From Mangrovibacillus cuniculi (lineage in GTDB: Bacteria; Bacillota; Bacilli; Bacillales; R1DC41), in the NCBI RefSeq assembly GCF_015482585.1, contig NZ_CP049742.1, positions 74,501 to 138,500 on the forward strand: DNA of 64,000 nt. The letters are read 5' to 3'. This document shows, piece after piece, positions 3,845 to 57,803 of this stretch. Below the pieces are notes generated by a model. It did not search any database. It had not been told where the DNA came from and saw only the letters and a list, made by a program, of their open reading frames with translations. How positions within the stretch are numbered: the first letter of the stretch is position 1; each line of letters starts with the position of its first letter. A program made the position numbers and the translations under genes.

Positions 3845-3937
3845 ATTTTTCCACCACCTTAGAGGTAAAAGCTTGTTCGTAGATATATATGGAGTGAATG
3901 GGAGGTTTAGAAGTGGGAGTTTTCTACTGTTTTTGGG

Positions 3938-4268
3938 GATAACGTGTGGTCAAGAAGGAGTAGTTGTGTTGCAGAGCACCCGTTAAATGGATAACGTGCG
4001 CTCAAGGAGAGGAGGAGAGATTGTAGAGCACACGTTAAATGGATAACGTGCGCTCTAGGAGGAGAGGAGAGGGTGTAGAGCACACGTTAAATGGATAACG
4101 TGCGCTCAAGGAGAGGAGGAGAGGTTGTAGAGCACCTGTTAAATGGATAACGTGTGCTCAAGGAGGAGAGGAGAGGTTGCAGAGCACACGTTAAATGGAT
4201 AACGTGCGCTCAAGGAGGAGAGGAGAGGTTGCAGAGCACACATTAAATCAATAGCATGCGCTCAAGAT
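3938..4268. repeat. Tandem hairpin array B1: six 52-bp units plus a half unit
   Basis: AGAGCAC starts fall at 3973, 4025, 4077, 4129, 4181 and 4233, exactly 52 bp apart, with a half unit before them. Arms GAGCACACGTTA and TAACGTGCGCTC pair at 11 of 12 positions over a six-base AATGGA-type loop. The spacer is almost pure purine (AAGGAGAGGAGGAGAG type). Located between the divergent dehydrogenase and galE, just upstream of the galE control region. Confidence 0.9.
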
Positions 4269-4311
4269 GAAGTAGTTAAACCCCAGACCACACCTCACAC
4301 GACAAATAAAA

Positions 4312-4325
4312 TGAAAACGCATACA
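4312..4325 (+). promoter_or_regulatory. cre-like CcpA site upstream of galE
   Basis: TGAAAACGCATACA fits the cre pattern TG-N-AA-N-CG-N4-CA. It lies about 90 bases before the galE start and just upstream of the paired palindromes, fitting carbon catabolite control by CcpA. Assignment is by pattern only. Confidence 0.5.
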
Positions 4326-4340
4326 TTTTACCATAGATTA

Positions 4341-4373
4341 TTTTACTAAAAAGTAGTAAAATTTTTAGTAAAA
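4341..4373. promoter_or_regulatory. Paired LacI-type operators of the galETM operon
   Basis: TTTTACTAAAAA at 4341-4352 and its exact reverse complement TTTTTAGTAAAA at 4362-4373. Each contains the odd palindrome TTTTA-S-TAAAA, and the centres are 22 bp (about two turns) apart. The same 11-mer occurs twice in front of the galactoside ABC operon at 7860-7903. The LacI-family protein encoded at 17072-18088 is the obvious candidate ligand. Confidence 0.65.
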
Positions 4374-4403
4374 CATATAGTGATTGCAAAGGAGGAGTTT
4401 GTT

Positions 4404-5405
4404 ATGGCGATTTTAGTTTGTGGTGGAGCAGGATATATTGGTAGCCATGCGGTCTGGCAGTTAGTGAAGCAAGGGGAAGAAGTGGTGGTGGTGGACTCCC
4501 TTCAGAAGGGTCACGCGCCGGCAGTTCATCCAGAAGCGACGTTGCACGTAGGGGATCTGCGCGATGCCACATTCCTAGATGGGGTGTTCAAAAAACACAA
4601 CATCGAAGCAGTTCTTCACTTCGCAGCGGATTCTCTTGTTGGGGAAAGTGTAACAGATCCGCTAACCTACTATGATAACAACGTTCACGGTGCGAACTGC
4701 TTGCTGAAAGCGATGGTGAAACACGATGTGAAGAAGATTATTTTCTCTTCTACTGCTGCGGTGTACGGTGAGCCGGATACGGTGCCAATCACAGAAACGA
4801 ATCGAGTACAGCCGACAAATCCTTATGGTGAGACAAAGTTAGCGATTGAAAAGATGCTTCATTGGTCGGAGCAAGCATACGGTATTCGTCACGTGGTTCT
4901 GCGTTACTTTAACGTGGCTGGGGCTGATACAGACGGTGTGATTGGGGAAGACCACACGCCAGAAACGCACTTGCTGCCGATTATCTTACAAGTGGCTCTT
5001 GGTAAAAGAGAGCAAATTCACATTTACGGAGACGACTATCCAACGCCGGATGGGACGTGTATCCGCGATTATATTCATGTAACGGATTTGATTCAAGCCC
5101 ATTTATTAGCGCTTACTCATTTGCGTGAGGGTAAAGGAAGCGACGTTTTCAATTTAGGGAATGGAAACGGCTTTTCTGTAAAAGAAGTGATCGAAGCTGT
5201 CCGTAAGGTTACTGGTCATGAGATACCTGCAGTTGTGTCCGAGCGACGAGGTGGCGATCCGGCTCAGTTAATTGCTTCTTCTGAAAAAGCGATGGCTGTA
5301 TTAGGGTGGGAACCGCGACACTCTTCCATGGAAGAAATGATTCAAAGTGCGTACGACTGGTTCCGCAACCATCCAACTGGTTATGGAAAGGTGGAGAGAA
5401 AATGA
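4404..5405 (+). CDS. galE: UDP-glucose 4-epimerase
   Basis: 333 residues, full length. Interconverts UDP-galactose and UDP-glucose in the Leloir pathway, using bound NAD. The Rossmann motif GGAGYIG lies at residues 7-13; the SDR catalytic residues are in SSTAAVYG (about 115-122) and YGETK (Tyr141, Lys145). The ATG is preceded by AAAGGAGG with good spacing. It is the first gene of galE-galT-galM; its stop overlaps the galT start (ATGA). Regulation by the operators and cre-like site just upstream is likely. Confidence 0.96.
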   Translation: MAILVCGGAGYIGSHAVWQLVKQGEEVVVVDSLQKGHAPAVHPEATLHVGDLRDATFLDGVFKKHNIEAVLHFAADSLVGESVTDPLTYYDNNVHGANCLLKAMVKHDVKKIIFSSTAAVYGEPDTVPITETNRVQPTNPYGETKLAIEKMLHWSEQAYGIRHVVLRYFNVAGADTDGVIGEDHTPETHLLPIILQVALGKREQIHIYGDDYPTPDGTCIRDYIHVTDLIQAHLLALTHLREGKGSDVFNLGNGNGFSVKEVIEAVRKVTGHEIPAVVSERRGGDPAQLIASSEKAMAVLGWEPRHSSMEEMIQSAYDWFRNHPTGYGKVERK

Positions 5406-6943
5406 ATACGGTGATCTTTTCACACGTAGAAAATCTTTTAACATATGGTGTACGAACTAATTTAATAGAAGAAACAGATAAGGATTATGTTCGGAATCGA
5501 TTGTTAGCGGTGTTGGATGTAGAACATTACGAAGTGCCTACCGAGATAGAGGAAGAGTCCAATCACCTAGTAATTTTAGAATCCATCCTTGATTGGGCTT
5601 ACGAACATGAACGTCTAGAGCATAACGATGTCACGCATCGAGATATTCTAGATACAGAAATCATGGGCTGCTTTGTGGCTCGCCCATCGGAAGTAAACAG
5701 AGTGTTTCGCACACTATATGAACAAGAGAGTCCTACAGCTGCAACGGACTATTTATATCGACTATCCAATGATTCCAACTACATCCGAACAGGACGTATT
5801 GCGAAGAATCAACATTGGCTGACAAATACAGATTACGGTGATATCGAAATTACTATCAATCTATCAAAGCCAGAGAAAGATCCTGCGACAATTGCGCTAG
5901 AGAAACAAGCGAAGCAATATGCGTATCCAACATGTTTATTATGTAAAGAAAACGTGGGATACAAAGGTCGCTTAACGCATCCTGCTCGCAGTAACTTACG
6001 TACAGTGCCGCTTACGTTACAAGAGGAAAAGTGGCAATTACAGTACTCTCCGTATGTGTACTACAACGAGCATGCGATCGTTTTCCGAGAAGAGCACACA
6101 CCAATGAAAATCTCGAAGCAGTCCTTTGCGAAATTACTAGATTTTGTGGAGCAATATCCACACTATTTCATCGGTTCGAATGCCGATCTACCAATCGTTG
6201 GGGGATCTATTTTGAGCCACGACCACTTCCAAGCTGGTAACCACGAGTTTCCGATGGCGAAAGCGGGCGTGTCACATACGTTTACCTTGGACGAATATAA
6301 AGATATCTCCATCGGAATTGTCGATTGGCCAATGTCTGTGTTGCGTTTAACGGGAACCGATGCAGCTAGTTTAGTAGAAGCTAGTGGGTATATTTTAGAG
6401 ATGTGGAAAGATTATTCAGATCCTGCTGTCGACATTGAAGCGTTCACAGGTGACACACCACACAACACCATTACGCCAATCGCTAGAAGAAGAGGAGACC
6501 AATTCGAACTGGATTTAGTACTTCGAAATAATAGAACGAGTGAGCAACATCCACTAGGAATCTTCCATCCACATGCGGAAGTTCACCCGATTAAGAAAGA
6601 AAATATCGGCTTAATCGAAGTAATGGGATTAGCTGTACTACCAGGTCGTTTAAAGGAAGAACTACAAAAAATCACAGAGTACGTGAGTGAGAACCAACTA
6701 GCGCAAGTAGCACAAGATCCACTTACAGCGAAGCATGCAGAGTGGGTACAGCAGCTTGTAAACAGCGTGGAGGAAGTGTCAGATTGGCAAGAAGTAATCC
6801 AGCAAGAAGTAGGAAGATTGTTCTCTATCGTCCTAGAGCATGCTGGTGTGTTCAAACGAGATAAAGAAGGACTAGAGGCATTTATTCGATTTACAAAAGA
6901 GTTGCAACAGGTAGGTGACCAGCATGAAGTACGAAACGTTTAA
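5402..6943 (+). CDS. galT: UDP-glucose--hexose-1-phosphate uridylyltransferase, class II
   Basis: 513 residues, typical of the longer Firmicute class II GalT rather than the roughly 350-residue E. coli form. Exchanges UMP between UDP-glucose and galactose-1-phosphate. The active-site stretch SHDHFQAG lies at residues 272-279, with His275 the likely nucleophile of the HxHxQ-like motif; a possible metal pair CLLC lies near residue 180. Translationally coupled to galE by a 4-base overlap, and its last 20 bases overlap galM. Confidence 0.95.
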   Translation: MNTVIFSHVENLLTYGVRTNLIEETDKDYVRNRLLAVLDVEHYEVPTEIEEESNHLVILESILDWAYEHERLEHNDVTHRDILDTEIMGCFVARPSEVNRVFRTLYEQESPTAATDYLYRLSNDSNYIRTGRIAKNQHWLTNTDYGDIEITINLSKPEKDPATIALEKQAKQYAYPTCLLCKENVGYKGRLTHPARSNLRTVPLTLQEEKWQLQYSPYVYYNEHAIVFREEHTPMKISKQSFAKLLDFVEQYPHYFIGSNADLPIVGGSILSHDHFQAGNHEFPMAKAGVSHTFTLDEYKDISIGIVDWPMSVLRLTGTDAASLVEASGYILEMWKDYSDPAVDIEAFTGDTPHNTITPIARRRGDQFELDLVLRNNRTSEQHPLGIFHPHAEVHPIKKENIGLIEVMGLAVLPGRLKEELQKITEYVSENQLAQVAQDPLTAKHAEWVQQLVNSVEEVSDWQEVIQQEVGRLFSIVLEHAGVFKRDKEGLEAFIRFTKELQQVGDQHEVRNV

Positions 6944-7853
6944 AGGGATAGAAGCCGTTGTTTTAGAAAATGAGGCCGTAAAGTGTACGTTTTTACCTAG
7001 TTACGGTGGAAAGCTCGCATCATTCTACGATAAGCGAAATGAGTACGAATGGCTGTTCCAAGCGGAAGAGGAGAATCTCCGCATCCCAGAGTACGGTAGT
7101 GACTTTTCCCTCTATGACTCTAGTGGATTTGATGAAGTGTTTCCTAGCATTGATGAAACCTTCCATCCGACAACAGGAGAAATAGTTCCAGATCACGGAG
7201 AAGTGTGGGCTCTCCCTTGGGAGGTAGAAGAGGTCGACCATGGACTACAGTTTACTGTGAAAAGTTCAGTCTTTCCTTATGAACTGATTCGTACGGTTAC
7301 GCTGGAGGAGGAAGGTCTCCAATTTGACTATCGTGCAGTCAATAACGGACCACTTTCCTTCCCGTTTATCTGGACACCTCATTGTTTACTAAACATGAAT
7401 GAGTATACGAAGATTGAGGTACCTTCTGGATTAGAGGAAGTAATAACCGTAGAGCACGGCACAAAGCATTTAGGAGAATGGGGCACTCGCCATACGTATC
7501 CTTTTACGAAATCTTTAAGCACTGGGGAAGAGATGGATTTATCTAAAGTTGCACCAATAGAGAGTGGGACGTGTGAGAAATTTTATTTTACTAAACCTCT
7601 CCCAGAAGGTTGGTGTGCAGTGAAGCAGCATGATCTCGGCACAACCCTTCGCTATGAGTTTCCTCATGAGAAAATACCCTACTTGGGTGTATGGAAGACG
7701 GAAGGTGGCTACAGAGGTCATTACAACATGGCGCTCGAGCCTTGTACGGGGATTTATGATGATGTGTATGTGGCGAAAAAGATTCGCAAAGTAACGGAAA
7801 TTCCGCCGAACGGAGAGTATACGTGGGAATTTCGTATGAAATTACTAAAATAA
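6924..7853 (+). CDS. galM: Aldose 1-epimerase-family protein (galactose mutarotase)
   Basis: 309 residues. It should convert beta-D-galactose to the alpha anomer used by galactokinase. The beta-sandwich epimerase pattern is present, with TPHCLLNM carrying the catalytic-type His in mid-protein and the C-terminal NMALEPCTG supplying the conserved Glu. The ATG lies 20 bases inside galT, after AGGTAGGTGA; a GTG three codons upstream is less likely. Last gene of the operon; no terminator is visible before the next promoter. The symbol is assigned from context as much as sequence. Confidence 0.85.
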   Translation: MKYETFKGIEAVVLENEAVKCTFLPSYGGKLASFYDKRNEYEWLFQAEEENLRIPEYGSDFSLYDSSGFDEVFPSIDETFHPTTGEIVPDHGEVWALPWEVEEVDHGLQFTVKSSVFPYELIRTVTLEEEGLQFDYRAVNNGPLSFPFIWTPHCLLNMNEYTKIEVPSGLEEVITVEHGTKHLGEWGTRHTYPFTKSLSTGEEMDLSKVAPIESGTCEKFYFTKPLPEGWCAVKQHDLGTTLRYEFPHEKIPYLGVWKTEGGYRGHYNMALEPCTGIYDDVYVAKKIRKVTEIPPNGEYTWEFRMKLLK

Positions 7854-7859
7854 TAAAAT

Positions 7860-7903
7860 ATTTTACTAAATATGATTGATTTGTTCTAAAATTTTTACTA
7901 AAA
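7860..7903. promoter_or_regulatory. Two TTTTACTAAAA operators of the galactoside transport operon
   Basis: ATTTTACTAAAT at 7860-7871 and TTTTTACTAAAA at 7892-7903, centres 32 bp (about three turns) apart. The second covers the -10 box of the likely promoter, so repressor binding would block RNA polymerase. Same motif as in front of galE. Confidence 0.65.
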
Positions 7904-7904
7904 T
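7876..7904 (+). promoter_or_regulatory. Likely SigA promoter of the galactoside operon
   Basis: -35 TTGATT at 7876-7881, 17-base spacer, -10 TAAAAT at 7899-7904. The -10 overlaps operator 2, and the cre-like site lies just downstream of the expected start. Confidence 0.55.
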
Positions 7905-7917
7905 CATAGATAGTTAA

Positions 7918-7931
7918 TGTAAACGCTTTCT
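7918..7931 (+). promoter_or_regulatory. cre-like CcpA site downstream of the galactoside promoter
   Basis: TGTAAACGCTTTCT matches the cre consensus TGWAARCGYTWWCW at every position. It lies just after the expected transcription start, a position where CcpA acts as a roadblock. Confidence 0.7.
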
Positions 7932-8017
7932 TTAATAAGATTATCTCATCTACGAACCAGGGGATTGCAAGTCAAGTGTTTACATAACCGTTCTAACAAT
8001 CTTAAGGGGGAAATAGG

Positions 8018-9310
8018 ATGAAAAGATTTGTTAAGGCATTAGGTTTAACAGCAGCAATGTCACTAGCTCTTGTTGGATGTAGCAACGACGAAGGATCTAG
8101 CAGTGACGGCGGCAAAGTAACATTAACTGCATGGGCATGGAACGTCAACGTTGGTGCACTAAACGATGCAGTAAAAATGTACGAAGAAGAAAACCCGAAC
8201 GTAGATTTAAAAGTAGAAGATATTGGACGCCTAGATGTATACGACAAGTTATCTACTGGTCTAGCAGCAGGTGGAGTTGGTCTTCCTGATATTGTATTAG
8301 TAGAGGATGACCGTATCCAAGGGTATGTAGAGGCATTCCCAAAAGGATTCTTAAATCTATCAGAAAAAGGATTTACAGAGCATGAAGATAAATTCCCAGA
8401 CTTCAAGAAAGAGTTAGCATCATTTGATGGCAACTTTTATGCAATGCCGTTTGATGCGGGTCCAGGTGGAATGTTCTATCGTCGTAGCCTATTCGAGCAA
8501 GCTGGTGTAAACGCAGAGGACATTAAAACGTGGGATGACTTCTTAGAAGCTGGTAAAAAGATTAAAGATGCTACTGGCTCGTACGCGATGCCACTAGATA
8601 AATTTAAAGATGACCCAACATTCCGTATGATGCTAAACCAACTTGGAGTGTACTACTTCGATGAAAATGGCAACATCGATTTAACGAGTCCAAAAGCGGT
8701 AGAAGCTATGGAAAAATTGAAAGCGTTTGCGGATGCAGACTTGATCAAAGATGTAGATGGATGGAACGGTGTTGTATCTTCTACAGTTGATGGTTCTGTT
8801 GCAACAATTCCGTTTGGTGCATGGTACTACGGTACTATCATCGACCAAGCGAAAGAATCTAGCGGTGACTGGGGAGTATTCTTACTACCAGGATTTGAAG
8901 AAGACGGAAACAGAGCATCTAACCTTGGTGGAAGTAGCTGGATGATTCCTTCTGCAGGTAAAAACACAGAGGAAGCGTATGACTTCATGGAGTTCTTCTC
9001 AACAGATCCAGAAGTACAAAACATGGCAATGAGCGATTACGGTTTATTCCCATCGTTAAACACAGCTTACGAGTCTGAACTATTCACTTCTGGTGATGAG
9101 TTCTTCGGCGGACAAAAGATTTGGGAGCTATTCGCTTCTGAAATGGAAAACATCCCAACAGCTTACTACACACAAGACTATTCACTTGGTCTTGATGAGT
9201 CGATCAAAGCACAAGCTGATGTCTTCAATGGAAAAGATGTAAAACAAGCTCTAGAGGAAGCGGCAAAACGTCTAAGCGACCGTTCTGGCCGTGAAGTAAA
9301 TTCGTACTAA
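8018..9310 (+). CDS. ABC transporter sugar-binding lipoprotein
   Basis: 430 residues, family 1 extracellular solute-binding protein. The N-terminus has a lipoprotein signal ending in LVGC (Cys21 lipidated), followed by a Ser/Gly-rich linker. The mature part starts VTLTAWAWNVNVGALNDAV and contains a PFDAGPGGMFYRRSLFEQAG segment typical of oligosaccharide binders. The ATG follows AAGGGGGAAATAGG. With the two permeases downstream it should import galactosides or galacto-oligosaccharides; the exact ligand is inferred from the GH36/GH42 genes. A partial terminator and repeats separate it from the permeases. Confidence 0.92.
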   Translation: MKRFVKALGLTAAMSLALVGCSNDEGSSSDGGKVTLTAWAWNVNVGALNDAVKMYEEENPNVDLKVEDIGRLDVYDKLSTGLAAGGVGLPDIVLVEDDRIQGYVEAFPKGFLNLSEKGFTEHEDKFPDFKKELASFDGNFYAMPFDAGPGGMFYRRSLFEQAGVNAEDIKTWDDFLEAGKKIKDATGSYAMPLDKFKDDPTFRMMLNQLGVYYFDENGNIDLTSPKAVEAMEKLKAFADADLIKDVDGWNGVVSSTVDGSVATIPFGAWYYGTIIDQAKESSGDWGVFLLPGFEEDGNRASNLGGSSWMIPSAGKNTEEAYDFMEFFSTDPEVQNMAMSDYGLFPSLNTAYESELFTSGDEFFGGQKIWELFASEMENIPTAYYTQDYSLGLDESIKAQADVFNGKDVKQALEEAAKRLSDRSGREVNSY

Positions 9311-9320
9311 GGAAAATAGA

Positions 9321-9354
9321 AGAGAGTTAGAAGATTGTTTCTAGCTCTCTTTTT
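9321..9354 (+). terminator. Hairpin with T tract after the binding-protein gene
   Basis: AGAGAGTTAGAA/TTCTAGCTCTCT pair at 11 of 12 positions, followed by a short T run. Such a leaky terminator would let the binding protein be made in excess over the permeases. Confidence 0.65.
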
Positions 9355-9447
9355 CTAAAATTAACTGTTACTTTTTAAAAATGACAATGGAACAGCTTAG
9401 TCTAAGTTTTACTCGTTACAACTAAGTCTCCTTTCTGCACATTCCTA

Positions 9448-9580
9448 GTTGCCCGGAGCGGAAGATGCGAAGACTCCTGAGGGATATAGCGGGAAGGCTG
9501 AGACCCTGGACTGAGCGAAGCGAGGGAAGCGGCTCAGCTCACGCCCCTAGGAAAGCGTAGCATCTGGAGCGCAGGGCAAC
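9448..9580. repeat. GC-rich dispersed Bacillaceae-type intergenic repeat
   Basis: About 133 bp bounded by GTTGCCC and GGGCAAC inverted ends. It contains GGAGCGGAAGATGCGAAGACT and, near the right end, GCATCTGGAGCGC. I recognise this GGAGCGGAAG...GAAGACTCC style as a repeat found between genes in many Bacillus-group genomes; the comparison is from memory. It interrupts the transport operon between the binding protein and the permeases. Confidence 0.6.
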
Positions 9581-9686
9581 GGGTTTTCCACTATCCAATT
9601 TTTTGAAAGTAACACAGAAGAAAACAGATTTTACTTAATCAGTAGCTACAGGCGCAAACGTGCGCCTTACGCTTTTCTTGATGTCT

Positions 9687-9926
9687 AGCTACAGGTGCGC
9701 AACCGCTCGGCAAACTCCAAAAGCCCTGTGGTGGTTGGAGAACTACCTCCTCGGTCTTCTGAAGTTTGCTGCCGCGACTGAACGCGCGCCTTACGCTTTT
9801 CTTGATGTCTAGCTACAGTTGCGCAACCGCTCGGCAAACTCCAAAAGCCCTGTGGTGGTTGGAGAACTACCTCCTCGGTCTTCTGAAGTTTGCTGCCGCG
9901 GCTGAACACGCGCCTTACGCTTTTCT
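9687..9926. repeat. Two tandem copies of a 124-bp repeat
   Basis: AGCTACAG starts at 9687 and 9811 (124-bp period); both copies run through GCGCAACCGCTCGGCAAACT and CTGTGGTGGTTGGAGAACTA to GCGCGCCTTACGCTTTTCT. A shortened copy with an internal deletion precedes them at about 9645-9686. Resembles the GTCTAGCT...GCGCTT...CTTTTC class of dispersed Bacillus repeats. Open frames through it are accidental. Confidence 0.75.
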
Positions 9927-9954
9927 AAATAGTAGTGGAAGAGAGTTGTTGAAA

Positions 9955-10809
9955 ATGAGAGTAAAAGCTCATGTACCATATTTATTTATCGCACCAGCTG
10001 TGATTCTTTTCTCCATATTTATGCTTTATCCCATCATTTCTTCCTTTATCTTGAGCTTCCAAACAAGTACAGGTGGAGAGATGGCCTTCAACGGACTAGA
10101 CAACTACACACGTCTATTCTCCGATGCAATCTTTTTAACAGCTTTAAAAAACACCTTCATCATCTTGATCATCCAAGTACCAGTCATGATGATTCTAGCA
10201 TTAATTGTTGCCACACTACTTAACTCTGCCTTGCTGAAATTAAAAGGTCTATTCCGCGTAGCATTCTTCTTGCCAGCGGTAACATCTTTAGTTGCTTACT
10301 CGATCATTTTCTCAATCATGTTGATGAATGATGGACTAATCAATCAGATTTTAGCAGCAGTTGGACTTGATGCAATTCCTTGGTTATCAAACCCATTCTG
10401 GGCGAAAGTATCGTTAATTATCGCCATGACATGGAGATGGGTTGGATATAACATGGTCATCTACCTTGCTGGATTACAAAACATCCCAGAGGAACTATAT
10501 GAAGCAGCGAGTATGGATGGAGCGTCGAAAATCCGACAGTTCTTCTCCATTACCATTCCTCAACTAAAACCAGTTATCTTGTTTACAGTGGTATTATCCA
10601 CGATCGGAACGCTTCAATTATTCGATGAGCCTTACACGTTAACAAAAGGTGGTCCAAGTGACTCCACACTAACGATCGGTATGTACTTATATCAAACAGG
10701 CTTTAGATACTTTGACTTCGGTTATGCATCCACTATTGCATACGTCATCGTAGTGCTAATCGCTATCTTAACAGCAATTCAATTTAAAGTGACGGGTGAT
10801 GACAAATGA
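9955..10809 (+). CDS. ABC sugar transporter permease (MalF/LacF type)
   Basis: 284 residues with about six membrane helices. The EAA loop reads EELYEAASMDGASKIRQFF near residues 180-200, the contact point for the ATPase. The start is the ATG after GGAAGAGAG; reading further upstream would run into repeat DNA, so the longer open frame is rejected. It overlaps the next permease by 4 bases (ATGA). Part of the galactoside importer with the upstream lipoprotein; no ATPase is encoded in the window's locus. Confidence 0.93.
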   Translation: MRVKAHVPYLFIAPAVILFSIFMLYPIISSFILSFQTSTGGEMAFNGLDNYTRLFSDAIFLTALKNTFIILIIQVPVMMILALIVATLLNSALLKLKGLFRVAFFLPAVTSLVAYSIIFSIMLMNDGLINQILAAVGLDAIPWLSNPFWAKVSLIIAMTWRWVGYNMVIYLAGLQNIPEELYEAASMDGASKIRQFFSITIPQLKPVILFTVVLSTIGTLQLFDEPYTLTKGGPSDSTLTIGMYLYQTGFRYFDFGYASTIAYVIVVLIAILTAIQFKVTGDDK

Positions 10810-40447: not shown

Positions 40448-40780
40448 ATGCCGACATATAACAAATTAGTGCGAGATAGGATACCTAAGATTATTGAAGC
40501 GAGTGAGAAAGCTTATACGACAAGAATTTTGTCGGAGGAAGAGTATATAGATGCTTTGCAAACTAAGTGTTTAGAAGAGTTCGAGGAATATAGGAAGGCA
40601 GAGTCTAATCAAGAAGCTATGGAAGAATTAGCGGACTTGCTTGAGGTGATGAATGCTTTGTGTAAGGTTCATGGGGCTAGCTTGAAAGAAGTGGACGATT
40701 TACGCAAAGCGAAAGCTGCTAGACGTGGTGGCTTTGAGGAAAGGATATTTTTGATGGAAGTGGAAGACGATGAGTCATAA
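40448..40780 (+). CDS. MazG-like/phosphoribosyl-ATP pyrophosphohydrolase-like protein
   Basis: 110 residues of the all-alpha NTP pyrophosphatase group: YNKLVRDRIPKIIEASEKAY, then LEEFEEYRKAESNQEAMEELADLLEVMNAL with the E-x-x-E and E-x-x-D metal ligands. The start MPTYNKLVRDRIP is the usual one; the second ATG is used since GAGGA lies 7 bases before it. The last 11 bases overlap the HNH nuclease gene, so translation is coupled, suggesting a joint role. Confidence 0.87.
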   Translation: MPTYNKLVRDRIPKIIEASEKAYTTRILSEEEYIDALQTKCLEEFEEYRKAESNQEAMEELADLLEVMNALCKVHGASLKEVDDLRKAKAARRGGFEERIFLMEVEDDES

Positions 40781-41762
40781 GTTGAAGGTTGGAGAGTTGC
40801 AGGAGGCGTATCGTACAGATGAAGAGATCTGGCGTATATTTACCATTGTGCTCTCCACGAAATCGGTTAAGTCATCTACATATAAGTTTGCGTTGATGAA
40901 GGCGTTGATAGAGAACTTGTATAACGTTAATGAAGACTGTGAACTTACGTATAACCAGTTGGTTTATACGTTTGCGAAGATGTATTGGAATCTTGTTGTG
41001 AAAAACAACTTACTGGAACACAACAGTAACAAACAGAAGAAAGCAAAAGTAGTAACGGTTATTAAAGCTATTCAACAACGATATTTCATTCCAGATGATC
41101 TGATGTTTGACACCTTAGACGACAGTATCCAATTAGAGTTGACGAATAAGGTAAAGGCGGTAATGAAAGAGAATGTATTTGGTGCACTATATGGAGATAC
41201 AAACGGCGTGTTCTATGCGTTTAACCACCAGGTAGAAGTCCTGCGTCTTCACCCTACTGTTCATCAATTTATGATGAAGTATCAGAGATTGATTATCTAT
41301 TTGACGAACTACCACATGGCTAAAATGATAGATAGTCTAAATGAAGTGCCGGATACGAACGGTTTACTAAATAAAATAGAGAGTATTGCAAAAAGGACTT
41401 CTCTTAAGCCTTTTGAAAAACTATTACTCTCCTACTTTGATAGTTGTTGCTTCTATTGTCAGAAGCCCTTGAAGATGGGTATTCGAGAAACGCATGTAGA
41501 TCACTTTATTCCTTGGTCGTTTGTGCAGTCGGATCAGATTTGGAATTTGGTGTTGTCTTGTAATCAGTGTAATTTGAAGAAGAGTGATAAGTTGCCGTTT
41601 CGTGCTTTTGTGGATGTGATTATGGAGCGGAATGAAGTGTTGCGGGAGACTGGGGATTCGCAGGTGGCTCGGTGGATGGAGAATTATCGTAGGGATAAGG
41701 TTGGGTTGTTGTATGAGTATGCGGTTAGGAATGGGTTTGATGGGGTTTGGGGGCCAGGGTAA
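40770..41762 (+). CDS. HNH endonuclease domain protein
   Basis: 330 residues. The C-terminal HNH domain has CFYCQKPL, then THVDHFIPWSF, then LVLSCNQCNLKKSD: two C-x-x-C zinc pairs and the D-H...N catalytic core. The first 200 residues are helical and not recognised. Overlaps the MazG-like gene by 11 bases. Position beside a restriction-modification system suggests phage defence or DNA processing; not proven. Codon usage in its last part is unusually G/T-rich. Confidence 0.85.
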   Translation: MSHKLKVGELQEAYRTDEEIWRIFTIVLSTKSVKSSTYKFALMKALIENLYNVNEDCELTYNQLVYTFAKMYWNLVVKNNLLEHNSNKQKKAKVVTVIKAIQQRYFIPDDLMFDTLDDSIQLELTNKVKAVMKENVFGALYGDTNGVFYAFNHQVEVLRLHPTVHQFMMKYQRLIIYLTNYHMAKMIDSLNEVPDTNGLLNKIESIAKRTSLKPFEKLLLSYFDSCCFYCQKPLKMGIRETHVDHFIPWSFVQSDQIWNLVLSCNQCNLKKSDKLPFRAFVDVIMERNEVLRETGDSQVARWMENYRRDKVGLLYEYAVRNGFDGVWGPG

Positions 41763-41941: not shown

Positions 41942-43411
41942 ATGACCTACAAATATGATGAATCAAATCCTTTAAGCATAAAGGATTACGCAGATAAGCT
42001 TATTGGAAAAACATTTTATGAGGTATTAGAATCTGCAAGAATTAATGTTGATGAAAAGCTAGGTATTATAACAAAGGCTAATAATCCTAGATATAAAGGG
42101 AGTATGGGCCATCTTATAGAGGAATATTATTTTGAATATAAGATTAATAGTGATCAAGAACCTGATTTTCCAAAAGCGGGAGTAGAGCTAAAAGTTACTC
42201 CGTATGAAGTTGGAAAAAAAGGGGGATATAAAGCTGGGGAAAGGTTAGTCATTACCATGATTAATTACAATCAACCAGTAGAAGATAATTTCTATTCTTC
42301 ACATGTATATAAAAAGTTTCGATATACTTTGCTAATTCACTATTTAAGAAACAGGAGTCTCAATAGGTTAGATTATCCTATTAATTATGTAACTTTGTTC
42401 TCTCCGCCAAAGGAAGATTTAGAAATAATTAAACAGGATTATGAAAAAATTATTTCTAAAATAAAAGAAGGGAAGGCACACGAACTTTCAGAAGGAGATA
42501 CTATGTATTTAGGAGCATGTACAAAAGGAGCTAATTCCATTAAAGGAAATGTTATTCAAGAATATTATGCTCCTAGTATAGAGGCCAGAACTAGAGCTTT
42601 TTGTTTTAAACAATCATATATGACGTATATATTAAACAAGTACTCTAGAGAGAAAATAGAAACCTATGAACCTATCATTCAGAATATTAAAGAACTAGAA
42701 GATAAGCGTTTTGAAGATATTATAGTAGATAAGATAAACTTATATAGAGGCTATTCAGATGGAGATTTATCAGAAATCTTTGATGTGAAAAAAGGTATCT
42801 TAAATTTTTGGAGTGCAATATCCTATAGAATTTTAGGTGTGAAATCAAACAGAGCAGAAGAATTTTTAAAGGCTGATATAGAAGTAAAAGCAATTAGAAT
42901 AGAAGAAAATGGAAGAATGCGTGAAAGTATCTCTTTTCCAACAGTTAGTTTTAAAGAATTTATTGAAGAAGAATGGGAAGAGTCACAACTTTACAATCAA
43001 TTAAGTTCAAAAAAATATTTGTTTGTACTCTTTAAAAAAGAAGGACTGACATATACGTTGAAAGGATGTCAGTTATGGAATATGTCTAACAAAGATTTAG
43101 AGGAAGCTAGTTTAGGTTGGTTAAGAACAAAAGAAATAGTTAAAAGAGGAGTAATCTTAAAGAAGAAATATAGGAAGGATGGCATAAACTTTGAAGTTAC
43201 TAATAACTTTCCTTCAAAAAAAGAAAATAGAGTTATTCATATTCGTCCCCATTCTTCTAAAAGATATTATAATCTAAATGATGGAGAAATTATAGGTGAG
43301 AACCGTAATCATGGTGATGAGTTACCTGATGGTAGAATAATGACAAAGCAATGTTTTTGGTTAAATAACTCTTACATTCTAACTCAAATAGATAATAAAA
43401 TACTTGATTAA
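41942..43411 (+). CDS. Sau3AI-family type II restriction endonuclease (GATC)
   Basis: 489 residues, the same length as Sau3AI as I recall it. The N-terminal MutH-like domain has KGSMGHLIEEYYFEYK and PDFPKAGVELKVTP, giving Asp75, Glu82 and Lys84, the D-x6-E-x-K spacing of MutH and Sau3AI. The C-terminal half is a second MutH-like module for DNA binding. Expected to cut at GATC unless the cytosine is methylated. Starts after AAAAGGAGCAACT. AT-rich compared with the sugar locus. Convergent with its methyltransferase. Confidence 0.9.
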   Translation: MTYKYDESNPLSIKDYADKLIGKTFYEVLESARINVDEKLGIITKANNPRYKGSMGHLIEEYYFEYKINSDQEPDFPKAGVELKVTPYEVGKKGGYKAGERLVITMINYNQPVEDNFYSSHVYKKFRYTLLIHYLRNRSLNRLDYPINYVTLFSPPKEDLEIIKQDYEKIISKIKEGKAHELSEGDTMYLGACTKGANSIKGNVIQEYYAPSIEARTRAFCFKQSYMTYILNKYSREKIETYEPIIQNIKELEDKRFEDIIVDKINLYRGYSDGDLSEIFDVKKGILNFWSAISYRILGVKSNRAEEFLKADIEVKAIRIEENGRMRESISFPTVSFKEFIEEEWEESQLYNQLSSKKYLFVLFKKEGLTYTLKGCQLWNMSNKDLEEASLGWLRTKEIVKRGVILKKKYRKDGINFEVTNNFPSKKENRVIHIRPHSSKRYYNLNDGEIIGENRNHGDELPDGRIMTKQCFWLNNSYILTQIDNKILD

Positions 43412-43470: not shown

Positions 43471-44718
43471 TTAATCGTTACTTAGAAACAATTCTTGTTG
43501 TATGCCCTGAATATTTTCACTTTCAATATTAATTATTCTTTGGGCCATACGTTCAATAAGACCTACTACTAGTGCATTACCCATACAAAAGTATCTCATT
43601 CTCTCAGGCATACCTTGTGTCCAATTATCTGGAAATCCATTTAAACGTTCACATTCAACAGGAGTTAGTGTACGCAATCTATTAGTTGTCGGATCTTCCA
43701 CAACATGTGTGCTACGATTTACTGTCCCTTCACTGGTTAACATGGTTCTACCCGGTTTATCCAAAGGTTCAGGAAAACTCATTCCACCTTCTGAGAATGT
43801 ATAATTGTGTCCAGTTGCTGATGTTCTCTCTATTTTCTTAGGACCTTTTAGGTATTTGAATTTTTCTATAGAAGATTCCTTCAAGTAATATTGCTCTGAT
43901 ACATCGTGTTCTAAAATATCTTTTAATGATATTGGGGTTTCTTGAATGGGTGTAACTTCTTCCGTGTAGACTACACTATCTCGCATTATGCCTGCATTGT
44001 AGTAGTTCATGGAAAAGTTATCAGATATATCAACAATGTCTCTTTTCATAATAAATGAATTGGGTTTCTTCTTTTCATGCAATTCATTTATTACAGGAAA
44101 TGCTTTTGCAAAAAAACCTTCTGTGCGAAGCATCTCTTCGTCTGGTACTTGCTGTCTATTTAATACAAAAGCTGTTTCGTTTTTTGTAGCAAAGATAAAA
44201 ACTCTTCTTCTTCTTTGGGCTTGTCCATAATCTGCAGCGTTAATAACTCTCCACTCGACAGTGTAATTTAAATCCCTTAAGCTAGCTAGCATGATAGAAA
44301 AATCCCTACCTCTTTGTTTGGAGGGAGACTTTAATAACCTATCAACGTTTTCTAAAAGAATATACTTAGGGTTAGTGCTTTGTGCTAGTCTTATTATCTC
44401 CCAAAACAATACTCCTTTTTTTCCTTGTATCCCTTTTTCACCACTTAAACTCCTTGCAACAGAGTAATCTTGACAAGGAAATCCTCCTACAATCATATCG
44501 ATGTTGTGGTTAGTGAAAATTTTAGTATCTACGGTGCTAATGTCTTCATTAGAATGGATGCCTTTGTTTTCAAAATTCCTTGCATAACATTCAAAAGCAT
44601 GTTGAGTTTTCTTGGATGGTTCCCATTGGTTCCCCCAAACTACGTTAAAGCCATTTGTAGCTTCTAGTCCTAAACGAAATCCACCAACACCTGCGAATAA
44701 TTCTATCACGTTAATCAT
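43471..44718 (-). CDS. DNA (cytosine-5) methyltransferase of the Sau3AI-type system
   Basis: 415 residues. Motif I ELFAGVGGFRLGLE at 6-19, catalytic motif IV GGFPCQDYS (Cys82), motif VI LLENVDRLL, motif VIII with QRRRRVFIFA, and motif X MGNALVVGL near the end. Size and neighbour match M.Sau3AI, which methylates the C of GATC, so it protects the host from the convergent nuclease. The start follows AAAGGATGTTCGGTC. No controller (C) protein gene is seen. Confidence 0.92.
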   Translation of the reverse strand: MINVIELFAGVGGFRLGLEATNGFNVVWGNQWEPSKKTQHAFECYARNFENKGIHSNEDISTVDTKIFTNHNIDMIVGGFPCQDYSVARSLSGEKGIQGKKGVLFWEIIRLAQSTNPKYILLENVDRLLKSPSKQRGRDFSIMLASLRDLNYTVEWRVINAADYGQAQRRRRVFIFATKNETAFVLNRQQVPDEEMLRTEGFFAKAFPVINELHEKKKPNSFIMKRDIVDISDNFSMNYYNAGIMRDSVVYTEEVTPIQETPISLKDILEHDVSEQYYLKESSIEKFKYLKGPKKIERTSATGHNYTFSEGGMSFPEPLDKPGRTMLTSEGTVNRSTHVVEDPTTNRLRTLTPVECERLNGFPDNWTQGMPERMRYFCMGNALVVGLIERMAQRIINIESENIQGIQQELFLSND

Positions 44719-45066: not shown

Positions 45067-45176
45067 GAGACATAGGGACAGGAAGATTGTCTTACTTTCT
45101 TTTTAAATAAATCCAGTATGTAAAACTATTCGTTATTAAATAATTTCTTAAGACACGGTACCTGTCCCCGTGTCTT
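45067..45176. repeat. MITE-like element G, copy 1
   Basis: 110 bp. Left end GAGACATAGGGACAGG, AT-rich middle with TTACTTTCTTTTTAAATAAA and TTATTAAATAATTTCTTAAG, right end CCTGTCCCCGTGTCTT; the ends are imperfect inverted repeats. The right part AAGACACGG...CCGTGTCTT also folds on itself. No coding capacity. Other copies at 48606, 55474, 57413, 57655 and 62501. Confidence 0.75.
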
Positions 45177-45179
45177 AAA

Positions 45180-45383: not shown

Positions 45384-45883
45384 TTATATATAAACCTTAG
45401 TGATAGTTCTTCAGTTGAAAAGGATAATTAGTACATCCAAGCACTTACAGTGGTTAAATTAAACAATTAAAACTGTAAAAAAATTTAGGATAAAATGAAC
45501 TATTTAGAAACTTGATAATAAGTTTCTAACAGAAGTAGCCAACTATAATGGATGTAACTGTTGGATATGATAGAAATATATAAAATTTTGTTTCATAATA
45601 CTAGATTTAAGTAATTCCAAATCAACAATCCTACATTTTGTGGTAGGTAAAATTTAAGGTTATTATCTGAACGAGTATTATGTGTGTTAAAGTATGAAGT
45701 TATTTGGTATTATTTACTATATGAGAATGTTGCTTGTTATTGAATTGTCAAGATTATTTTATCGACATATACCGGTAAGTGACAGGCACAAGCACGTCAG
45801 GACATATCTAGTAAAAAGTGTTATATTTTCTATAAGTAGTTTATTCAAATATGAAAAATTGTTTGGCATAATGAGGTGGAGAA
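45384..45883. other. AT-rich region upstream of the FRG gene
   Basis: About 500 bases without a supported gene. An open frame at 45694-45903 has no ribosome site and overlaps the FRG start. The promoter of the FRG-DUF262 operon should lie here; no clear consensus was found. Confidence 0.45.
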
Positions 45884-47083
45884 ATGTTAAAGACTTTAGG
45901 TAATATTTTTAATATAGAAGAATTGAAACATATTAATCTAACTGAGGATGAGGAAGAGCTTTCGAGAATAATAGACAAATATATTACAGAGATTACTTCA
46001 TTATCAAAGATGGATGATTCTCAAATAAAAGAGACTCTAAATGAATTAACTACATTAGTAAAGGACACTCCTGAATTTGATTTTTACTTAAATAATTTAA
46101 GGTATATTAAGCAATCATATTTTATTGATAAAAAGGAAGAAGAGTCAAGAATAATTGATCTAGACACAATAAAGCAATTAAGATTAGATGAACTAATAGA
46201 TCTTGAAGACTTTAGCGGTAATACAAACATAGAAATTACTAATGAGAAAATTGAGGAAATGGTAAATATAAAACGTGAGGAAGAGGAAAAATGGAAGGAT
46301 TATAATATAATAAGTACAATTTCTAATATAATTGGGGTACAGGAGTCAAATATCGAATACATTTCGAATCTTAGTGATTATATTTCGTTTGTAGCTAATT
46401 TAGAACCAGCAGTAAATTATGTCTCCAGAGGGCAAAAAAATTGTACATATGAATTATTACCTTCGTTACATAGAAAACATAAAAAAGATTATGAAATTCA
46501 TGCAGACAAATATGAGGCTGCATTTAAGCAAAAGATCGTATTTTATGATAGGGAAATAAAGGGTATATCTAATGAAGAACTAAGAGCTGAAGGACAACAT
46601 TTTGGGTTACCGACAGAATACTTGGATTTTACAGAAGCACATTTAATTTCACTACTATTCGCTATTGAAGATTACGAGTATGCAGAACAGCATTCTATCG
46701 TTTATTTTATTGATGCTTTATCGTATAATCTTGAAACTGTAGATTTAAAAGAGAAATTAATTAATTTCTCTGATTCTACTGTAGTTGAATCAGTAAGGAA
46801 ATTTTCATCAAGATCTTACTTTATCAAGTTAGGTAACTCTAATGAAAGAATACATTTTCAAAAAGGGTGTTTCTTAAAAGTTTCTACACAGGATAAAGAT
46901 GATTTTAAAGAAAAAATATCTAATCACGGTAAGGCGGTAATAATTAACAAGGCATCAAAAAAGAAAATTTTAAAAGAATTATTTAACTTAGGTGTTACAT
47001 TTGAAAACATATACCCTGACAAAGATAATGCGGTAAAGTCAATTAATTTTCATTATAAAGAAATGCAAGGAGAAAATGATTAA
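45884..47083 (+). CDS. FRG-domain protein
   Basis: 399 residues. The FRG domain occupies about residues 155-340: YVSRGQKNCTYELLPSLHRK at 179-198 and EGQHFGLPTEYLDFTEA at 236-252, the two conserved stretches of this family. The N-terminal 150 residues are helical, acidic and unrecognised. The FRG domain is of unsettled function and is common in defence-associated genes. The ATG follows GAGGTGGAGAA. Only 2 bases separate it from the DUF262 gene, so the two are surely one operon. Very AT-rich, unlike the left half of the window. Confidence 0.8.
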   Translation: MLKTLGNIFNIEELKHINLTEDEEELSRIIDKYITEITSLSKMDDSQIKETLNELTTLVKDTPEFDFYLNNLRYIKQSYFIDKKEEESRIIDLDTIKQLRLDELIDLEDFSGNTNIEITNEKIEEMVNIKREEEEKWKDYNIISTISNIIGVQESNIEYISNLSDYISFVANLEPAVNYVSRGQKNCTYELLPSLHRKHKKDYEIHADKYEAAFKQKIVFYDREIKGISNEELRAEGQHFGLPTEYLDFTEAHLISLLFAIEDYEYAEQHSIVYFIDALSYNLETVDLKEKLINFSDSTVVESVRKFSSRSYFIKLGNSNERIHFQKGCFLKVSTQDKDDFKEKISNHGKAVIINKASKKKILKELFNLGVTFENIYPDKDNAVKSINFHYKEMQGEND

Positions 47084-47085
47084 TT

Positions 47086-48363
47086 ATGAATACAAGATTT
47101 AAAGAATCTATGAAAAATATAAAATCAAGTCGCCCACTAATCTCTGTTCAAGATATAGTTACTTTTATTGATAAAGGAGAAAAATATTTAAAACTTTCTA
47201 TAGAGGAAATGACGGAAGAACAAGAGATGGAAATTCTACAAGGGATAGTTCTAAGTCCAGACTATCAGCGGAATTATAGGTCATCTATAAAGGAAGAAAG
47301 CTCTATTATTGAGTCATTATTAATAGGAATACCCATTCCAGAAGTATTCTTAGTTGTTTCTGGTAAAAACGATGCTCAAATTAGACATGTAATGGATGGG
47401 CAACATCGATTAAATGCAATATATAGGTACATAAATAATAAGTTTCCATTAAAGAACCTAGAGGTATTAGGAATTAATCCACAGTATGATAATAAAAAAT
47501 TCTCTGAACTAGATAAGAAAGATAAGATTAAGATTCTTGGAAGTCACTTATCAATCTTGGAATTTGAAAGTTTTGAGGACCCAGAAGTTGAAATTGAATT
47601 ATTTAAAAGATATAACAGGAATACTAAACCTCTAGAAATTCAAGAAATTGAAATGGCAACATATTTTTCAGAAACTAGTAAATATATTAGTAAGTTCGTT
47701 AATGTTTTAATTGAAGAAAGTGATAAAGTTAATGAAGATTTCTTTCGTATGGAAGAATCAAATTTAGAAAAATTATATAAAATATACAATATAACAAAAT
47801 CTCGTACTGATAAGCAAAAAAATCATCAAGAGATATGCATAATATTTAGTGTTATAGAAATAGGACTTCAAGAGAATGTTAGAGACGGTGTGACAGCTTC
47901 GAAGAAATTTCTAGAGAGAAAGTCAAAAAAATATAAGAATAATGAAAGTGAAAATCTAGATTCCTTAAAAACAGAGTTTGAGCAATTTAATAATTTGCTT
48001 TTAAAGATATCTGAGAAAGTAGAATTTCCTTTTTCTACAGGTATGGTGTCTGATGACAAGCAACGCTTGAGTAAATTTTTAATTGGAGTATCTATAGTAT
48101 TAGCAGCAATTTATTATTATTTTGAGATAGAACTCGAAAATGAGAATTTAGTAGAAGATTTAAAAAATGTTATATCCTATTCGCCAATAGCAGATATTGA
48201 GTATAAAGCATCCTCTACTAATATGAAGAACATTATGAATTACTTATTTATTAATAATGAAGTTCAGAATAAATCTTATAAATCTTTAAAAATCAAGATT
48301 GATAAATTAGATGAAATCAATTCTTTTATTCAAAGATCCCCTCATTTAGAAACACCACGGTGA
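47086..48363 (+). CDS. DUF262-domain protein (GmrS/SspE-N-like)
   Basis: 425 residues. DUF262 motifs: SPDYQRNYRS near residues 57-66, SLLIGIPIPEVFLV at 77-90 and VMDGQHRLNAIYRY at 102-115, the ParB-like NTP-binding core with the D-G-Q-H/Q-R-L motif. The rest is helical with a short hydrophobic stretch (LIGVSIVLAAIYYYFEIE). No DUF1524/HNH nuclease domain follows, unlike GmrSD and SspE. Partner FRG gene directly upstream. A role as sensor or NTP-dependent switch is inferred from family. Confidence 0.83.
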   Translation: MNTRFKESMKNIKSSRPLISVQDIVTFIDKGEKYLKLSIEEMTEEQEMEILQGIVLSPDYQRNYRSSIKEESSIIESLLIGIPIPEVFLVVSGKNDAQIRHVMDGQHRLNAIYRYINNKFPLKNLEVLGINPQYDNKKFSELDKKDKIKILGSHLSILEFESFEDPEVEIELFKRYNRNTKPLEIQEIEMATYFSETSKYISKFVNVLIEESDKVNEDFFRMEESNLEKLYKIYNITKSRTDKQKNHQEICIIFSVIEIGLQENVRDGVTASKKFLERKSKKYKNNESENLDSLKTEFEQFNNLLLKISEKVEFPFSTGMVSDDKQRLSKFLIGVSIVLAAIYYYFEIELENENLVEDLKNVISYSPIADIEYKASSTNMKNIMNYLFINNEVQNKSYKSLKIKIDKLDEINSFIQRSPHLETPR

Positions 48364-48552: not shown

Positions 48553-48615
48553 TGATGGGAACTATTGGTGAAATAGCAACTATTATCGGTTTTGTTAGCC
48601 TTATTGAGACATAGG
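48553..48615 (+). pseudogene. Possible truncated toxin-like peptide gene
   Basis: Twenty codons: MMGTIGEIATIIGFVSLIET, then TAG. It is preceded by GGGGTGGTGCCT, a strong ribosome site, in a leader-like context. The hydrophobic stretch resembles the start of small holin-like type I toxins. The last codons and the stop (GAGACATAG) come from the left end of element G copy 2, so the gene seems cut by that element. Confidence 0.35.
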
Positions 48616-48656
48616 GACAGGTTCTCTTTCCTACTAATTATTTACATAATGTCAGC
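48606..48656. repeat. Element G, copy 2 (left half only)
   Basis: GAGACATAGGGACAGGTTCT then CTACTAATTATTTACATAAT, the same subtype as the copy at 62501. The right half is missing. It supplies the stop codon of the small ORF at 48553. Confidence 0.6.
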
Positions 48657-55452: not shown

Positions 55453-55473
55453 TTACTGGCAGGATCTTAGCTT

Positions 55474-55574
55474 GAGACAGGGACCTTTCCTTACTTTCTA
55501 TTTAAATAAATTCAGGGTCTAAACCTTTGCATTATTAAATATTTTTTAAGACATGGTACCTGTTCCCATGTCTT
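55474..55574. repeat. Element G, copy 3
   Basis: 101 bp from GAGACAGGGACC to TGTTCCCATGTCTT with the shared AT-rich middle (TTACTTTCTATTTAAATAAA, GGGTCTAAACC). Lies between two plus-strand hypothetical genes. Confidence 0.72.
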
Positions 55575-57421: not shown

Positions 57422-57536
57422 GGACCGAGACATAGAGACAGGAACCTTGTATTACTTTCTTTTTAAATAAATTTAGGGTCTAAAACTTTGCGCTATTAAA
57501 TAATGTTTTAAGACACGGTGCCTGTCCCCGTGTCTT
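57413..57536. repeat. Element G, copy 4
   Basis: 124 bp with a doubled left end (GAGACATAGGGACC then GAGACATAGAGACAGG), the AT-rich middle, and right end CCTGTCCCCGTGTCTT. Overlaps the stop codon of the preceding GNAT gene. Confidence 0.75.
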
Positions 57537-57803
57537 AAAACATGTACATCTGCTCATCAATTCAATTCTAAGTAAACAAAAGTGGTAGACAGAGGAATAG
57601 TTCCTTTGTCTTCTAATCGTTGCCTAGAACTTTTCACCATCAAATTCTTTTCTTAAGACACGGTACCTGTCCCTGTGTCTTTATTCCCCAGTTTTTCTAC
57701 TTAACGAAAAAAGATTTTCCTCCCCTATTTAAAACTATTTTCACCCTATTAACGACTAAACAAATGAACGAGCAAACAATCAGGTAGAAACGGACGAGAT
57801 AAC
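57537..57803. other. Intergenic region with a right-end fragment of element G (57655-57681)
   Basis: AAGACACGGTACCTGTCCCT then GTGTCTT is the self-complementary right end of element G, standing alone. The rest should hold the promoter of the sigma factor operon; no consensus was recognised. Confidence 0.55.

Follow-up and report, generated by a model that had tools for sequence, protein, structure and literature searches.

Two genes on the same strand, 2 bp apart, encode an FRG-domain protein and a DUF262 protein in the window, the whole stretch of 64,000 nucleotides of Mangrovibacillus cuniculi DNA analysed here. An earlier note made from the sequence alone had described the pair in these terms, and both open reading frames and their Pfam domains were confirmed. 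The genes each have a GC content of 27.5%, against 43% for positions 1-40000 and 40% for the whole window, which bears out their description as AT-rich, and the restriction-modification (R-M) system said to adjoin them is found upstream as genes for a C5-methyltransferase and a Sau3AI-family endonuclease:

41942-43411, + strand: Sau3AI/MutH-family restriction endonuclease (NCBIfam restrict_Sau3AI, E=4.9e-158)
43471-44718, - strand: cytosine-C5 DNA methyltransferase (Pfam DNA_methylase, E=2.7e-75)
45873-45879, + strand: ribosome-binding-like GAGGTGG preceding the FRG start codon, read from the sequence
45884-47083, + strand: FRG-domain protein, 399 aa, candidate effector (Pfam FRG, PF08867, E=1.9e-13)
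47086-48363, + strand: DUF262 (GmrSD_N) protein, 425 aa, candidate NTP-dependent sensor or switch (Pfam PF03235, E=9e-12)

The spacer of 1,165 bp between the methyltransferase and FRG genes contains no listed open reading frame of at least 80 aa, and a promoter scan gave matches at chance level only. Comparison with the nearest relative indicates purifying selection on the FRG gene (dN/dS 0.18/1.95) as well as the DUF262 gene (dN/dS 0.125/2.54), dS being saturated in both, and the DUF262 protein is the only PF03235 protein of the genome. Just upstream of the endonuclease gene, positions 40770-41762 encode an HNH protein (HNH_4) resembling the HNH parts of Cas9/IscB and PtuB, which possibly belongs to the Sau3AI R-M island. 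A palindromic repeat (arms GGGACAGG / CCTGTCCC; fold z=-3.7) at 45067-45179 recurs at 48606-48649, 55466-55574 and 57427-57539, so that several copies of this MITE- or REP-like element lie near the operon and few elsewhere in the genome.

The FRG protein consists of an N-terminal extension (approximately residues 1-150) followed by the FRG domain (approximately residues 155-395). Membership of the FRG family (PF08867), defined by a score above the curated cut-off together with conserved R-G, QHxGxPT and R...Q motifs, is supported by all of these features (51.6 bits against a cut-off of 25), and the PADLOC model PDC-S15 also matches the protein (E=2.3e-33). Identity is 40-72% to nine other long orthologues and 26-28% to three short ones, and alignment of 34 FRG proteins places the conserved motifs as follows:

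46427-46432, + strand: R182-G183 within the 'FRG' motif, both residues invariant (34/34)
46595-46633, + strand: FRG motif 2, QHFGLPTEYLDFT, residues 238-250, with Q238, H239, T244 and D248 in 34/34
46847-46873, + strand: FRG motif 3, RIHFQKGCF, residues 322-330, with R322 and Q326 in 34/34 and F330 in 33/34

The residues invariant in all 34 proteins are R182, G183, Q238, H239, T244, D248, F259, R322 and Q326, a polar set compatible with enzymatic activity. Frg was assigned by Iyer and colleagues to the ADP-ribosyltransferase (ART) superfamily, with a suggested NADase or effector activity (PMC9503650); in a literature search that covered mainly open-access papers, this proposal was the only relevant discussion of FRG, and no experimental study of the domain was found. 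Following the published superfamily assignment, ART/NAD chemistry of the FRG protein is a serious possibility, if one of somewhat less than even likelihood. In hhalign, FRG matched shallow KptA and RES profiles, built from few sequences, with a probability of 0.1-0.2%, comparable to negative controls. AlphaFold2 models of the FRG and DUF262 proteins are of low confidence (pLDDT 47 and 61), and Foldseek searches with these models returned no match below E=1. Searching the PDB by sequence found no solved relative, and the FRG protein contains no recognisable nuclease signature and has no Pfam nuclease match.

The second gene product belongs to the DUF262/GmrSD_N family (PF03235) by its profile match (Pfam GmrSD_N score of 46 bits against a cut-off of 33.2) and by the three motifs DGQ[QH]R, QR and FxxxN, each of which is present in 13/13 paired DUF262 proteins:

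47257-47271, + strand: 'QR' motif, PDYQR, residues 58-62
47395-47409, + strand: DGQHR at residues 104-108, corresponding to the NTP-binding DGQQR motif
47602-47616, + strand: FxxxN motif, FKRYN, residues 173-177

The 'QR' motif takes its name from work on GrwAB, in which the QR, DGQ.R and FxxxN motifs are conserved and mutations of NTPase residues abolish defence (PMC12137116), and DUF262 has been described as an NTP-dependent regulator (PMC10952713, PMC12137116). The C-terminal part of the window's protein is predicted to be helical and is NsnA-like, not nuclease-like, because the best PADLOC model, NsnA (E=9.1e-35), spans residues 52-388. A Pfam search gave no DUF1524 or HNH match, in agreement with the claim of the earlier note that this nuclease part is missing.

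Scanning peptide patterns from the FRG protein against ~85,000 species genomes yielded seven relatives (four in Lachnospiraceae, one in Clostridium, one in a further Clostridia MAG and one in Bacillus), and a DUF262 gene lies immediately downstream in 7/7. FRG and DUF262 profiles built from these relatives were then used to search the order to which the window belongs: the FRG profile detected three further relatives among 199 genomes, and the DUF262 profile detected the window's own protein and five others among 397, with FRG upstream in 6/6, including two genomes (G501 and G612) first detected through DUF262 only. FRG is thus directly upstream of DUF262 in 13/13 loci (the window and 12 relatives in other Bacillota genomes), with gaps ranging from -11 bp (an overlap) to +18 bp, and the 13 neighbourhoods share no third conserved gene. 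Two architectures occur: ten loci encode a long FRG protein (~390-420 aa) with the N-terminal extension and three a short one (257-264 aa). In a sample of 398 genomes of the phylum, FRG matches were found in 20 and DUF262 matches in 17, the own genome being counted in each, and no FRG and DUF262 genes were neighbours besides the window's own pair; since the other FRG and DUF262 genes in these genomes are never adjacent, the pairing is lineage-specific and not a chance outcome of two abundant domains.

The two families also share a history. Paired proteins fall on one side of a branch in the DUF262 tree (support 100/99) and in the FRG tree (support 89/84), the branching order of the two trees is nearly identical, and pairwise FRG and DUF262 distances are correlated with r=0.98 over the 13 pairs and 0.966 over the ten long pairs. 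FRG and DUF262 form a real two-gene module that is conserved and co-inherited. The pairs of an uncultured Clostridia genome (L008) and of L059, a genome from the window's order, group as sisters in the FRG tree and in the DUF262 tree alike, and the two genes have apparently moved horizontally across classes as a unit. Viral contigs contained no close relatives of either protein; phages and plasmids contained only distant standalone FRG genes, distant DUF262 genes and one decayed DUF262. The last of these is a remnant on Sarcina sp. JB2 plasmid p3 (L049, 6001-6949), 51% identical to the window's DUF262 and spread across short open reading frames, with no recognisable FRG gene beside it.

R-M or defence genes lie within ~8 kb of the operon at 9/13 loci:

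Window: Sau3AI R-M
L002: C5-methyltransferase
L003: YhcG
L005: HpaII R-M and AbiJ
L007: Shedu
L008: type III R-M and a TIR protein
L058: DNA methyltransferase and a Schlafen-group helicase with GIY-YIG
L060: type I R-M
L062: Roco protein and a Schlafen-group helicase

The other four (L004, L006, L059 and L061) have no clear defence neighbour. At E<=1e-25, operon flanks (110 proteins) matched 129 PADLOC models compared with 35 for 13 control regions (144 proteins), where the matches are largely helicases, GlgB and other cross-hits; the comparison is crude, dominated by methyltransferases and with several models per gene, and serves as support, not as a statistic. With this qualification, the pair is a conserved operon enriched among defence genes, and the repeated co-occurrence near such genes that the earlier note had named as a check was found. 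At L062 (5347-8136) a bacterial Roco protein (LRR-Roc-COR) is encoded directly upstream of the operon and the Schlafen-group helicase downstream. In L007 (region 3895-9983) and L062 (region 4368-10396) the operon follows, at a few kb downstream, genes that were identified by eye as yycJ-htrA-rlmH. SCCmec attaches at rlmH in staphylococci, and the position of two operons downstream of this gene suggests a shared insertion hotspot.

Outside the pair, FRG is widespread, being found in 354 plasmid records in addition to the phylum sample, and it is commonly encoded alone, with no DUF262 gene. In three loci (L018, L022 and L026) an FRG gene is placed between hsdS and hsdR of a type I R-M operon, overlapping or a few bases apart, with Methylase_S and HSDR_N in the flanking genes confirmed by Pfam, and in two more (L024 and L011) FRG follows hsdS; the embedded FRG may serve type I R-M as an additional effector. 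Standalone FRG genes also occur in accessory regions of temperate phages. Those of Peduovirus P2_2H1 (L079), phage Tritos (L074) and PhiR11_1 (L082) encode proteins of ~450 aa in coliphage accessory positions, that of the P2-like phage lying at the right end near a replication gene. Its presence beside hsdS and in temperate-phage accessory regions indicates that FRG has been repeatedly recruited to defence settings. Further DUF262 genes that the search detected have HEPN or AAA/OLD genes as neighbours.

Among known systems, Menshen (NsnABC), of which NsnA is a component, shares the DUF262 length class, and all paired DUF262 proteins tested match NsnA better than any other PADLOC model (E 1e-32 to 1e-49). 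The NsnA partner, however, is an OLD/ATPase protein, whereas the FRG-DUF262 unit has no ATPase or OLD gene. L034, with an NsnA match (E=1e-143) beside AAA_15, has the Menshen-like arrangement and is consistent with NsnA belonging to Menshen. Membership of Menshen was rejected, as an NsnA-type DUF262 is present but the adjacent OLD/ATPase partner is absent and FRG stands in its place in 13/13 loci. GmrSD, BrxU, SspE and GrwAB likewise have an N-terminal DUF262 with QR, DGQ.R and FxxxN motifs but carry a DUF1524 His-Me nuclease, which is replaced here by a separate FRG partner gene; assignment to GmrSD (type IV restriction) or SspE was rejected, neither protein containing DUF1524. PDC-S15, a name that marks a single-gene candidate, matches the window's FRG protein as a single-gene entry, in contrast to the consistent pairing with DUF262, and the paired FRG proteins mostly carry an N-terminal extension. 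The candidate operon ptuXYZ (PMC11980606) also combines a DUF262 protein lacking DUF1524 with a toxin-like effector, but has three genes, including a PtuA-like ATPase and a BECR-fold RNase, and no FRG. Pairs of DUF262 with HEPN (MAE_28990) at L041, L042, L045 and L048 resemble the module in that DUF262 adjoins one effector-like gene, but the HEPN RNase-type partner is downstream and their DUF262 proteins form a separate tree branch. The literature search described above found no paper in which FRG and DUF262 appear together, an absence that is not proof, and neither it nor PADLOC contained a named system of exactly this two-gene pair. The earlier note likewise knew of no such system, but FRG is already listed by PADLOC as PDC-S15 and Frg as an immune effector has been proposed in print (PMC9503650). 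Both families were previously suspected of a role in defence, and the coupling of DUF262 to an effector is already known.

The pair very probably has a defence function, and by analogy DUF262 is probably the sensor and FRG the effector. This division of labour is supported by the DUF262 genes beside HEPN or AAA/OLD genes, by ptuXYZ and by Menshen and Dazbog, in which DUF262 is essential (PMC10952713). The two genes would then constitute one horizontally moving antiphage module, in which DUF262, as a nuclease-free NTPase of the GmrSD_N/ParB-Srx type whose motifs are intact, may serve as a sensor or allosteric switch. An infection cue, phage DNA or a nucleotide, would change the NTP-bound state of DUF262, and this change would release or activate the FRG protein, which would consume NAD+ or ADP-ribosylate a target and so stop growth of the infected cell. 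Such NAD+/ADP-ribosylation activity is favoured because of the published ART assignment. The model as a whole, a mobile two-protein module with a DUF262 switch and an FRG effector likely acting on NAD+ or by ADP-ribosylation, is judged slightly more probable than its negation.

The strict co-inheritance, tiny gaps and position in an AT-rich island would also be compatible with a toxin-antitoxin style pair in which DUF262 keeps an FRG toxin inactive and which as a pair stabilises a mobile island, any phage defence being incidental, and the Sarcina plasmid remnant without FRG is what would be expected if the toxin gene were lost more readily. A DUF262 gene as large as FRG and with NTPase motifs in 13/13 proteins is, however, unusual for a simple antitoxin, and the common standalone FRG genes do without DUF262, so this explanation is considered unlikely. 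Slightly less likely is type IV-like restriction, in which DUF262 would recognise modified phage DNA and FRG would be a nuclease-like or DNA-acting effector in place of DUF1524: DUF262 does work with modified-DNA recognition in GmrSD, BrxU, SspE and GrwAB (PMC10952713, PMC12137116), and DNA methyltransferases or R-M genes lie near several operons (the window, L002, L005, L058 and L060), but the C-terminal His-Me nuclease is absent, and in FRG no nuclease signature can be recognised and no Pfam nuclease matches. The four loci lacking defence neighbours, and the two operons that follow rlmH, where insertions of many kinds are frequent, would fit a module that has an accessory regulatory or housekeeping role with no relation to phage and is near R-M genes only because both accumulate in AT-rich islands. 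The pair is nevertheless rare and patchy (6/397 same-order genomes), has apparently been transferred across classes (L008 with L059) and unites two families independently tied to defence, which makes this explanation improbable.

To return to the sensor-effector module, its most specific form would be an antiphage system in its own right: infection is sensed by a GmrSD_N-type NTPase devoid of a nuclease, which activates an ART-fold FRG enzyme, leading to NAD+ depletion or to ADP-ribosylation of a cell component. This form is advanced tentatively, as about one chance in three. If it is correct, DUF262 would be a general, exchangeable sensor for effectors acting on DNA, RNA or NAD+. FRG joins DUF1524, OLD/ATPase, HEPN and BECR RNase among the effectors found with DUF262, supporting the idea of a modular infection sensor, and an operon this compact, in which the regulatory partner is well understood, offers a direct route to the function of FRG.
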